Assembly: GCA_944323985.1 (NCBI GenBank)
Contig: CALUUP010000008.1
Span: forward strand, 1 to 64,000
DNA from: Candidatus Gastranaerophilales bacterium
GTDB taxonomy: Bacteria; Cyanobacteriota; Vampirovibrionia; Gastranaerophilales; Gastranaerophilaceae
Direction of reading: 5' to 3'
DNA: 64,000 nt
The position numbers and the translations under genes were made by a program. Positions within the stretch are counted from its first letter, which is position 1. Each line of letters starts with the position of its first letter. The notes under the pieces are model-generated. The model searched no databases. It was not told the origin of the DNA and was given only the letters and a program-made list of their open reading frames with translations. This document shows positions 32,566 to 34,831 of this stretch, in pieces.

Positions 32566-32691
32566 AATGTTTTATTATACAACAAAATTATCATTTTATC
32601 AATAAATAATTTTATCAATAAATACTAATCATTACCCACAGATTACACATACAAAAAATCTATTAAAAAATGGTTTTAGCCCCCTCCTGAA

Positions 32692-32917
32692 ATGACTGGA
32701 ACGACGAGGCTGTCTAGGATTGTTCGCAAAGAACTGCAATTTCTCATTTTGACATCAAGAATTCTTCTCTTGTCAAAATGTTCCAGTCTTCGCTTACAAT
32801 CCGCGCGAACTTGGGCAGGTTTAAAACAACCTGTGGCGAGTTCTCACTTCTTTATTTCACGAATAAAAAACAAAAAAATAAGTCCGATTATGCGGACTTA
32901 TTTTTTATTAATGGCGG
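32692..32917. repeat. structured repeat R1 with tRNA-Asp 3'-end fragment
   Basis: A 220-bp unit aligning over its whole length with R2 at 33259-33480. It begins with GGAACGACGAGGCT, identical to the minus-strand view of the tRNA-Asp acceptor and T-arm, and ends with an ATGGCGG fragment of the same tRNA end. Inside are a closing stem (32706-32712 with 32784-32790), a hairpin (32747-32778), an 18-nt hairpin around CAGGTT/AACCTG, and a terminator hairpin (32873-32906). ORFs across it are not protein-like. The 32566-32691 stretch before it shows nothing beyond AT-rich sequence. Confidence 0.75.
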
Positions 32918-33035: not shown

Positions 33036-33258
33036 TATTAAACATAGTTTATCTGTTATTGTAGATATGTTGAATCTTTGTTGAATAATCTACATTACTA
33101 AATTGTGATAGCTTTTCGTAGGTCTGATTTAGTTTGTAGGATGTGGTAAATCTGTGATTTACCACATCTTTTAATAATTTTGTTTTGTGAATCAATGAAT
33201 ACCTAATAGAACCTGTCAGCATTACTATACTGACAAAATTTATTTTCAAATTTTGTTA
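33036..33258. other. intergenic stretch between R1 and R2 with hairpins
   Basis: No convincing gene. A perfect 13-bp hairpin (33140-33152 with 33156-33168, 3-nt loop) followed by TTTT looks like a plus-strand terminator. TGTCAG...CTGACA at 33217-33238 forms a second small dyad. The minus-strand ORF at 33049-33249 crosses both hairpins and is judged spurious. Confidence 0.5.
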
Positions 33259-33480
33259 ATGGCGGGAACGACGAGGCTGTCTTGAGTCGCTCGCATTAAA
33301 CGGCAATTCCGTGTTTTGACTTCGTGATTTCATCACTTGTCAAAATCACTCCAGCCTCTGCTCGCTCCTCGCTCGAACTCAGGCAGGTTTAAAACAACCT
33401 GCGGCGAGTTCTCACCTCTTTATTCCACAACAAAAGAACAAAAAAATAAGCCCGACAAGCGGGCTTATTTTTTTGTTAAA
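33259..33480. repeat. structured repeat R2 next to tRNA-Asp
   Basis: Second copy of the 220-bp unit, starting with a copy of the tRNA-Asp 3' end (ATGGCGGGAACGACGAGGCT) and ending where the intact tRNA-Asp gene begins. The closing stem is 33273-33279 with 33352-33358, the hairpin 33314-33345, and the CAGGTT/AACCTG hairpin is conserved. Relative to R1, base changes at two pairs of the hairpin and one pair of the terminator are compensatory, and R1's closing stem keeps pairing through two G-U pairs readable only on the plus strand. Confidence 0.75.
33441..33473 (-). terminator. terminator after tRNA-Asp (also usable on the plus strand)
   Basis: 14-bp stem (33441-33454 with 33460-33473) around AAGCCCG/CGGGCTT with A and T flanks, 8 bp past the CCA end of tRNA-Asp. 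It is the homologue of the hairpin at 32873-32906 in R1. Confidence 0.85.
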
Positions 33481-33558
33481 TGGCGGGAACGACGAGGCTC
33501 GAACTCGCGACCTCATGCGTGACAGGCATGCGCTCTAACCAAACTGAGCTACGCTCCC
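33481..33558 (-). tRNA. tRNA-Asp (anticodon GTC)
   Basis: Complete cloverleaf on the minus strand: acceptor GGGAGCG/CGTTCCC, anticodon stem CATGC/GCATG with loop CTGTCAC (anticodon GTC), T-arm GCGAG-TTCGAGC-CTCGT, discriminator G and encoded CCA. A promoter at 33599-33627 and a terminator at 33441-33473 frame it. Fragments of its 3' end recur at 32692, 32911 and 33259. Confidence 0.96.
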
Positions 33559-33598
33559 ATATTTAATTTTCACATCGTAACCTCTCGGTTACATTTTT

Positions 33599-33627
33599 AA
33601 TATAACTTGCTAAATTTTTTTTTGCAA
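33599..33627 (-). promoter_or_regulatory. promoter of tRNA-Asp
   Basis: On the minus strand TTGCAA, 17 bp, TATATT, giving a start near 33592. The leader holds a small hairpin GTAACC/GGTTAC (33576-33591) before the mature 5' end. Confidence 0.65.
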
Positions 33628-33683
33628 GTACTTATTTTTTTACCCAATTAGTTAATTGCAAATTAATCAACTCGAGAATTTAT

Positions 33684-33712
33684 TTAACACCGTTATTTTT
33701 GTTTAATATAAT
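33684..33712 (+). promoter_or_regulatory. consensus sigma-70 promoter with no ORF behind it
   Basis: TTAACA (33684-33689), exactly 17 bp, TATAAT (33707-33712). Only about 60 nt separate the expected start from a terminator, and that interval has no start codon. Confidence 0.6.
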
Positions 33713-33718
33713 CATTAA

Positions 33719-33777
33719 ATCTTTTTCATACTTCCAGCTATTCTTAATTCCTAGAGCCATTTGGCTCTTTTTTTTTA
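33719..33777 (+). ncRNA. candidate 60-nt small RNA
   Basis: Bounded by the promoter at 33684-33712 and a terminator hairpin AGAGCCA/TGGCTCT (33753-33759, 33762-33768) with eight or more T. It could also be a terminated leader of the ZIP gene at 34031, but the terminator lies 250 bp before that start, and the ZIP gene has its own -10. Confidence 0.45.
33753..33777 (+). terminator. terminator of the candidate small RNA
   Basis: 7-bp GC-containing stem with a tiny loop and a long T run on the plus strand. No plus-strand gene precedes it within 600 bp. Confidence 0.75.
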
Positions 33778-33807
33778 GAGGATACGGAAAAATCCAAAAA
33801 TTGACTG

Positions 33808-33980
33808 GCGAGAGCGGGAGCGTTGTACGAAGTACAAAAGCTCATTCTCGCAAATTTTTGAGATTTTTATAAATCCGACCTTCGGTGTGTGAGCATCAGG
33901 TTGTGTGTGGGATAGCATACAATCTGATGCGAAACCGTTCCTAGCAGTTTGCGAGAAAAATGTCAAATTTTCCGCAAACT
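33808..33980. other. three consecutive large hairpins before the ZIP gene
   Basis: Hairpin 1 (33808-33851): GCGAGA, GAGC and TTGTAC arms pair with GTACAA, GCTC and TCTCGC. Hairpin 2 (33893-33930): about 13 bp, GCATCAG paired with CTGATGC and beyond. Hairpin 3 (33946-33980): AGTTTGCG paired with CGCAAACT. A small stem with a TTC loop sits at 33878-33886. The block is visibly richer in G+C than its surroundings and has no credible ORF. A TGATATAAT -10 for the ZIP gene follows at 33993-34001. Confidence 0.6.
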
Positions 33981-34030
33981 CTTTATTTATTGTGATATAA
34001 TTTTCTCGTGAATAAATAAAGGATAAACAA

Positions 34031-34831
34031 ATGATAGAAAATTGGAAAATACCTCTTTTAATGACTGTTTTTGCAGGACTTGCTACGGTTATAGGTGGTT
34101 TTATAACTTTTTTGGTCAATAGAAAAAGTCTTAAAATTCTTTCTTTAGGACTTGGCTTTTCTGCTGGTGTCATGATTTTTGTTTCTCTTACAGAAATTCT
34201 TAATACCGCAGAAGAATTATTAAAACAATATTATCCGATAGATTATCATTGGATTATGTTTTGGGGATTTATTGCAGGGGTTATTATTTCTAAACTTATT
34301 GATACATTCCTTCCCGATCACGTTGAAGATGATTTGGGTGCTGACAACAAAGAAGGTTCGTCTAAGAAAGAACATAGAATAAAAAGAGCGGGTTTATTAA
34401 CGGCTATCGCAATTGCAGTTCATAATTTTCCGGAAGGACTTGGAACATTCCTTGTTACATCACAAGATTTAACTATCGGGATTTCAGTTGCATTAGCTAT
34501 CGCTTTACACAATATTCCAGAAGGAATTGCCGTTGCTTTACCTATTTACCATGCTACCGGTAAAAAAAGAATGGCTATTTGGTATTCTTTTTGGACTGGC
34601 ATGACTGAACCTTTAGGAGCTTTAATAGGACTAGCTTTATTACATTGGTTTTTGCCTCAAGTATTTGTAGGTTTTGCTATGGCTGCGGTTGTTGGGATTA
34701 TGATTTATATTTCTTTCGATACACTACTACCCCTCTCTCACGAATATGGCGATTGGCATTATGCTATTGCAGGTATTATGTCCGGTATTATTGTTATTTG
34801 GGCTAGTTTATTATTCTTAAACGGTTATTAA
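34031..34831 (+). CDS. zupT: ZIP-family divalent metal transporter (ZupT-like)
   Basis: 266 residues with eight membrane segments and a hydrophilic loop (about residues 95-120). VHNFPEGLGTFLV and LHNIPEGIAVALP are the paired H-N-x-P-E-G metal-site motifs of TM4 and TM5. It imports Zn2+ or a similar metal. AAAGGA precedes the ATG by about 8 nt. The unusual hairpin block upstream may affect its expression. It is a single gene. Confidence 0.93.
   Translation: MIENWKIPLLMTVFAGLATVIGGFITFLVNRKSLKILSLGLGFSAGVMIFVSLTEILNTAEELLKQYYPIDYHWIMFWGFIAGVIISKLIDTFLPDHVEDDLGADNKEGSSKKEHRIKRAGLLTAIAIAVHNFPEGLGTFLVTSQDLTIGISVALAIALHNIPEGIAVALPIYHATGKKRMAIWYSFWTGMTEPLGALIGLALLHWFLPQVFVGFAMAAVVGIMIYISFDTLLPLSHEYGDWHYAIAGIMSGIIVIWASLLFLNGY

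Follow-up and report, generated by a model that had tools for sequence, protein, structure and literature searches.

Introduction

The Correia or NEMIS elements of Neisseria come in two sizes, about 107 and 155 bp, the difference being an internal piece of 50 bp (PMC2229807, PMC10969869). The former paper also describes the CIR elements of Caulobacter, which consist of two palindromic arms and a linker and are kept between species, and the RUP elements, which insert at TA dinucleotides (PMC2229807).

Here we analysed a window of 64,000 nucleotides from Candidatus Gastranaerophilales bacterium (GenBank assembly GCA_944323985.1, contig CALUUP010000008.1, positions 1 to 64,000, forward strand). 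A first-pass annotation had pointed to three large hairpins at 33808-33980, in front of a gene for a ZIP metal transporter, and had offered two readings, a cis-regulator of metal transport or a mobile hairpin relic. Our analysis makes it highly probable that the block represents a MITE-like element, mobile but non-autonomous, that belongs to the Gastranaerophilales, a gut order related to cyanobacteria. The family is apparently undescribed so far; no published description was found among the titles and opening lines of abstracts of the open-access literature on Gastranaerophilales and Melainabacteria.

Results

The hairpin block and its borders

The block does contain three stem-loops. In RNA folding of 33775-33990, the + strand reached -80.4 kcal/mol, whereas shuffled sequences averaged -48.57 (sd 4.51; z -7.06) and none of 200 shuffles was as good; the - strand reached -67.2 kcal/mol (z -5.76). 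The block had rightly been described as richer in G+C than its surroundings: 0.434 at 33808-33980 vs. 0.296 in the window, with 0.243 in the left flank (33560-33777) and 0.338 in the right flank (33982-34830). The proposed borders had to be redrawn, since comparison with other copies set the repeated unit at 33778-33981 (204 bp). The first hairpin, drawn as one, turned out to be two nested things, since the loop of the left-end palindrome has received an extra hairpin of 46 nt (module A, Table 1). The window element equals the 157-bp standard form plus this inserted hairpin and a 1-nt difference. By repeat finding, 33777-33791 pairs with 33968-33982 as an inverted repeat at 80%.

Table 1. Features of the element and its neighbourhood in the window
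Feature	Position	Strand	Basis or remark
Candidate small RNA gene, separate from the element	33684-33776	+	Promoter/terminator scan
Small-RNA promoter (TTAACA, 17, TATAAT)	33684-33712	+	
Candidate small RNA AAATCTTTTTCATACTTCCAGCTATTCTTAATTCC	from ~33717	+	
Small-RNA terminator	33753-33776	+	Stem differs between genomes
Left 4-bp target-site duplication, TTTA	33774-33777		Sequence; a 4-bp duplication is the family rule
Probable mobile element, 204 bp	33778-33981	+	Covariance model match, 153 bits
Left terminal inverted repeat GAGGATACGGAAAA	33778-33791	+	Family motif GAGNNTGCGGAAAAA
Module A, optional 46-nt hairpin in the left-end loop	33806-33851	+	
Invariant linker GGTGTGTGA	33884-33892	+	Unchanged in 43 aligned copies, partly by construction
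Central covarying hairpin	33893-33930	+	Inverted-repeat finding and covariation
Central hairpin loop GTGGGATAGC	33907-33916	+	
Conserved linker GAAACCGTTCC	33931-33941	+	Alignment; CCGTTCC required by the core search pattern
Right-end palindrome, including right terminal inverted repeat TTTTCCGCAAACTC	33945-33981	+	Repeat finding, alignment
Right 4-bp target-site duplication, TTTA	33982-33985		Sequence
Predicted extended -10 of the ZIP promoter, TGATATAAT	33993-34001	+	Sequence
ZIP-family metal transporter gene, 266 aa	34031-34831	+	PF02535

Copies and distribution

Copies were collected with a core pattern that demanded exact matches to GGTGTGTGA, GGGATAGC and CCGTTCC, so the invariance of these motifs is partly built in; copies from other searches, that with the covariance model among them, were not chosen by this pattern. 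The pattern matched 103 DNA stretches in the genome collection. Among the 80 matches listed were Candidatus Gastranaerophilales, Melainabacteria, Cyanobacteria, Candidatus Adamsella and unclassified MAGs, and one was labelled a proteobacterium. One stretch in the IMG/VR viral contigs matched the element pattern, and the phage and plasmid collections contained no match. The window's own genome holds three full copies, the other two on C18 (93%) and C19 (91%), and one solo element end on C13. The structure alignment started from 64 copies of 154-160 bp, of which 43 remained after thinning (<95% identity). A covariance model built from 43 copies gave matches in 56 of the order's 286 genomes, spread over 18 of 50 genera (E<=0.001), and many genomes outside the window's genus had a single match each.

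As is typical of MITEs, the element is multi-copy, dispersed and mostly intergenic, with copies beside unrelated genes in many genomes. "Relic" is too weak a word for a family that reaches high copy numbers in several genomes (e.g. G029). Around 54 copies, 72 of 108 gene flanks were 5' ends of genes; this is weak evidence for a 5'-end preference because upstream gaps are usually longer.

The commonest class measures 155-159 bp and the longest complete copy read 319 bp, below the limit of about 500 bp for MITEs. Even that copy is too short to contain a transposase, and the lack of an internal transposase is a further mark of MITEs. Copies of 46, 56, 98-99, 155-159 and 203-319 bp have the ends and the target duplication in common. 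The larger forms have additional pieces, namely module A, which sits in the left loop, module B (CATTAAACG...CTCTGC) and another insert in the core, and the stems of the optional modules differ between genomes. Module A is present in L032, L089, L100 and L139 and missing from the orthologous insertion in L123. Elements in G042, G265 and G037 follow the same three-hairpin plan at 155-157 bp with other core sequences. At L200, L210 and L211 the same end motif surrounds a different core with GTCATTCTGAG / GAAGAATCTC palindromes; the ends therefore carry several unrelated cores.

Two similar structured repeats (32690-32900 and 33258-33470) lie beside a tRNA gene of the window (33484-33558). Each begins with sequence resembling the 3' end of this tRNA (TGGCGGGAACGACGAGGCT in 33258-33470) and has a terminator-like hairpin after it, and the repeat at 33258-33470 has CATTAAACGGC...CCTCTGC in common with module B of the long elements.

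Ends and target duplications

Both ends bear terminal inverted repeats resembling GAGNNTGCGGAAAAA, within the range of about 4-30 bp for MITEs. In G029 this motif occurred 46 times forward and 46 times reverse (reversed control 0). It was present in 27 of 38 genomes of the genus, and where copy number is high its counts greatly exceeded those of the reversed control.

From 105 distinct core-bearing contexts we obtained 74 copies with both ends by the motif rule; 71 of these had flanks of 12 bp at either end, and dropping shared flanks left 67. Younger copies of MITEs are flanked by direct repeats, and an exact 4-bp duplication was found at 44 of these 67 distinct insertions (TTTA/TTTA in the window), vs. 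2.05 expected when flanks were re-paired; the maximum in 1000 shuffled pairings was 8. Repeat lengths of 2-3 and 5-10 showed no comparable peak in the same 67 insertions. The remaining 23 had no exact duplication. Further, mostly distant model matches, including those in G042, G265 and G037, had an exact 4-bp duplication in 3 of 20 cases. The element inserts into AT-rich sites that show a weak and symmetric preference, T..C.NNNN.G..A.

Candidate mobilisers

Searches with PF01609 and PF13586 turned up no IS partner with a DDE_Tnp_1 or DDE_Tnp_1_2 transposase. PF01609 matched 5 of 38 genus genomes, and the six loci examined contained no pair of matching ends; PF13586 matched one of 16 genomes searched, and none of those from the window's genus. 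Among the matches listed, no end-motif pair at the spacing of a transposase gene was convincing. A 2189-bp pair in G029 (L193) was rejected as an autonomous copy, having host-like genes inside (translations read) and no duplication. Reading of the sequences beside 20 fetched isolated end motifs revealed no transposase; several of these motifs were chance matches inside genes and others were short palindromic elements.

At L073 (3490-7800), MuA-like (650 aa), ATPase-like and tyrosine-recombinase-like frames lie beside an element copy, and the region may be a transposable prophage. The MuA-like gene and ATPase beside the copy in L073/L274, named from sequence, were not taken as partner because the region has no second matching end.

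One closely similar cassette of hipB-hipA, the element and a tyrosine recombinase was seen at at least nine examined loci (L064 4448-6808; similar at L062, L069, L115, L134, L135, L265 and L270-L273). The recombinase was named by PF00589, HipA and HipB by reading the sequence. Most matches to the cassette proteins were about 86-100% identical and lay in different neighbourhoods and genera.

The ZIP locus

The downstream gene had been correctly identified as a ZIP transporter (PF02535, E 5.2e-35), and the element lies 49 bp upstream of its start codon. A 17-bp spacer counted from TGATATAAT would put the -35 at 33973-33978, within the last hairpin, just as the first-pass annotation had supposed. 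Many orthologous ZIP genes are preceded by comparable TG-rich -10-like sequences without an obvious -35.

Absence of the block before ZIP orthologues, together with copies elsewhere, had been named beforehand as the outcome that would argue against metal control, and this is the outcome we observed. ZIP orthologues were found in 41 of 57 genomes searched, and the best 30 loci were fetched, 29 of them from other genomes. The covariance model detected the element in none of these 29 (best match 10.7 bits, E 0.91, a 37-position fragment), and copies stand by unrelated genes. No known metal riboswitch core had been recognised in the block, and indeed no Rfam family reached its gathering score there; a permissive threshold gave chance-level matches only. 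On these two results we reject a metal riboswitch, and the reading as a metal cis-regulator is not supported. The reading as a mobile hairpin is supported by the inverted repeats at its ends, the duplicated 4-bp targets and the dispersal of its copies.

A sister genome (L123, contig CALVAL010000022.1) carries a 157-bp copy, without the 46-nt hairpin, at the same ZIP site. This insertion was found by pattern and agrees with G275:C22 in contig number and position. Since the insertion is common to both ZIP sites, it probably predates the split of the two genomes. Identity between them was 150/157 in the element, 663/797 (83%) in the ZIP gene, 158/178 in the left flank and 38/49 in the right flank. 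These values suggest either slower evolution of the element than of the sequence around it or its homogenisation through conversion. In the related ZIP loci L165 and L169 no element separates the terminator from the -10 region, which follows it directly, and both loci are therefore natural empty sites.

Covariation in the core

Across the 43 copies (<95% identity), 12 of 14 tested pairs of the central hairpin had changed on both sides, and the linkers and loop stay fixed while the stem changes. In the central pairs, 98.5% of cells pair vs. 77.8% after shuffling, and the covariation score was 0.657 vs. 0.236 shuffled and 0.030-0.145 when slid. Tree counts of changes to G-U vs. A-C gave 16:6 in the central, 14:7 in the left and 3:10 in the right hairpin. 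The G-U excess in the central and left hairpins favours a folded + strand; the right hairpin shows the opposite. Selection on the fold is likely, though not proven, because arm-to-arm correction could mimic covariation.

A neighbouring small-RNA candidate

The candidate small RNA has three copies in the window's own genome. Of 57 relatives, some of them in other families, 45 gave a match with 33-34 nt identical, and among 39 distinct copies that were fetched 38 agree over all 35 nt. Rfam contained no match to it. It also lies upstream of ZIP in several relatives, and other copies lie elsewhere. At L260, a unit beginning CTACGCACGTAGACATATGGTCGGCTGACAG is repeated downstream of one copy. The complement of the candidate resembles a ribosome-binding site followed by ATG AAA AAG, and a search of its own genome for antisense targets (<=3 mismatches over 23 nt) returned none beyond its own copies. 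This nearly invariant 35-nt candidate is a separate lead on regulation in the order.

Discussion

As a MITE-like element, the block would be moved by a transposase supplied in trans that recognises the ends, each a palindrome, and makes a 4-bp staggered cut. The element would land preferentially in promoter regions, and the window copy would have landed between the terminator of the conserved small-RNA gene and the extended -10 of ZIP. The sequence upstream of the promoter would thereby have been replaced and the basal ZIP promoter probably left working, because orthologous ZIP promoters are without an obvious -35 too. A false lead, the metal switch, is removed and gives way to a mobile family that would reshape promoter regions in a little-studied gut lineage. 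Several points count against the MITE reading. No autonomous relative or transposase turned up with PF01609, PF13586 or among the end-motif pairs listed; 23 of the 67 insertions have no exact duplication, and of the 20 further, mostly distant matches only 3 have one; and the fold and parts of the core appear to have been conserved for longer than expected of ordinary MITEs.

Other explanations of the whole block fare worse. It is most improbable that it serves as a metal-responsive leader of the ZIP gene, be it a riboswitch or a protein site: the short distance to the start codon and the retention of the insertion in two genomes, with a difference of 17% between their ZIP genes, fit such a leader, but the element is missing from the 29 other ZIP loci, stands near many other genes and matches no Rfam riboswitch. 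We think it very unlikely that the enzyme acting on the hairpins is a tyrosine recombinase, in the manner of integrons, or a REP-type HUH transposase and not a DDE transposase. Both element ends are palindromic, and the hipBA-element-recombinase cassette, found in several genera, includes a tyrosine recombinase of 179 aa whose start lies some 80 bp beyond the right end of the element; yet 4-bp duplications at varied sites are expected of neither enzyme, the recombinase is missing beside most other copies examined, and in G211 (L275) a 56%-identical recombinase lies on the other side of the element. The 179-aa protein was rejected as mobiliser, most copies giving it no support.

Two readings deal with the core and can stand alongside the MITE reading of the entire element. 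One, which we hold possible if doubtful, is a mobile structured-RNA element whose core is transcribed, by read-through or from an undetected promoter, and whose folded RNA acts on behalf of the element or of genes nearby, with ends that serve just to move it. The double changes in the central pairs, the G-U bias in two hairpins, the invariant single-stranded motifs, the optional modules with changing stems, and the recurrence of the three-hairpin plan in G042, G265 and G037, where the cores differ, argue for it. The opposite bias of the right hairpin argues against it, as do the only marginal advantage of the + strand in stability of the central stem alone (27/43, p 0.059) and the lack of an identified internal promoter; a folded single DNA strand would, moreover, give the same pattern. 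The other reading, which we judge unlikely, takes the compensatory changes as neutral: each hairpin arm would be corrected from the other through template switching, conversion would act between copies, and covariation would reflect DNA mechanics and not selection. The higher identity of element and orthologue than of ZIP gene and flanks is what copy-to-copy conversion would give, and the window and L123 elements differ by a whole 46-nt module. Conversion does not, however, require invariant loop and linker motifs (an invariance that is partly ascertainment), and the G-U over A-C bias in two hairpins also speaks against it.

A broader proposal is rather unlikely, namely that the element belongs to an ancient, order-wide family that carries as cargo a folded RNA of modular build, or a single-strand hairpin, on which selection acts. 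Its terminal palindromes would serve movement, its core hairpin would keep fixed loop and linker motifs, domains would be gained and lost as units, and the mover would not be among the common insertion-sequence transposases tested. Be that as it may, a compensating, long-conserved fold with modular domains raises the question whether some MITE-like elements carry a functional RNA.

Seen beside known systems, this family is new and MITE-like; its hairpin core is unusual in being so conserved and modular, and as to metal control it is ordinary. It is short, dispersed, intergenic and of MITE type like ERIC, RUP and BOX (PMC2229807, PMC10969869), of which RUP differs in its insertion at TA dinucleotides (PMC2229807). 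From the CIR elements it differs in having clear target duplications and a third, central hairpin. The palindrome at each end, in inverted orientation, recalls REPIN / RAYT palindromes and the ends of IS200/IS605. REPIN / RAYT and IS200/IS605 are not known to make a target duplication; the present element, in contrast, has 4-bp duplications. Compared by description with the Correia / NEMIS elements, it stands apart in its 4-bp duplication, its covarying central hairpin and its further optional modules. It resembles them in being MITE-like with two size forms, here 157 and 204 bp, and in the predicted folding of its RNA, as Correia / NEMIS transcripts fold.
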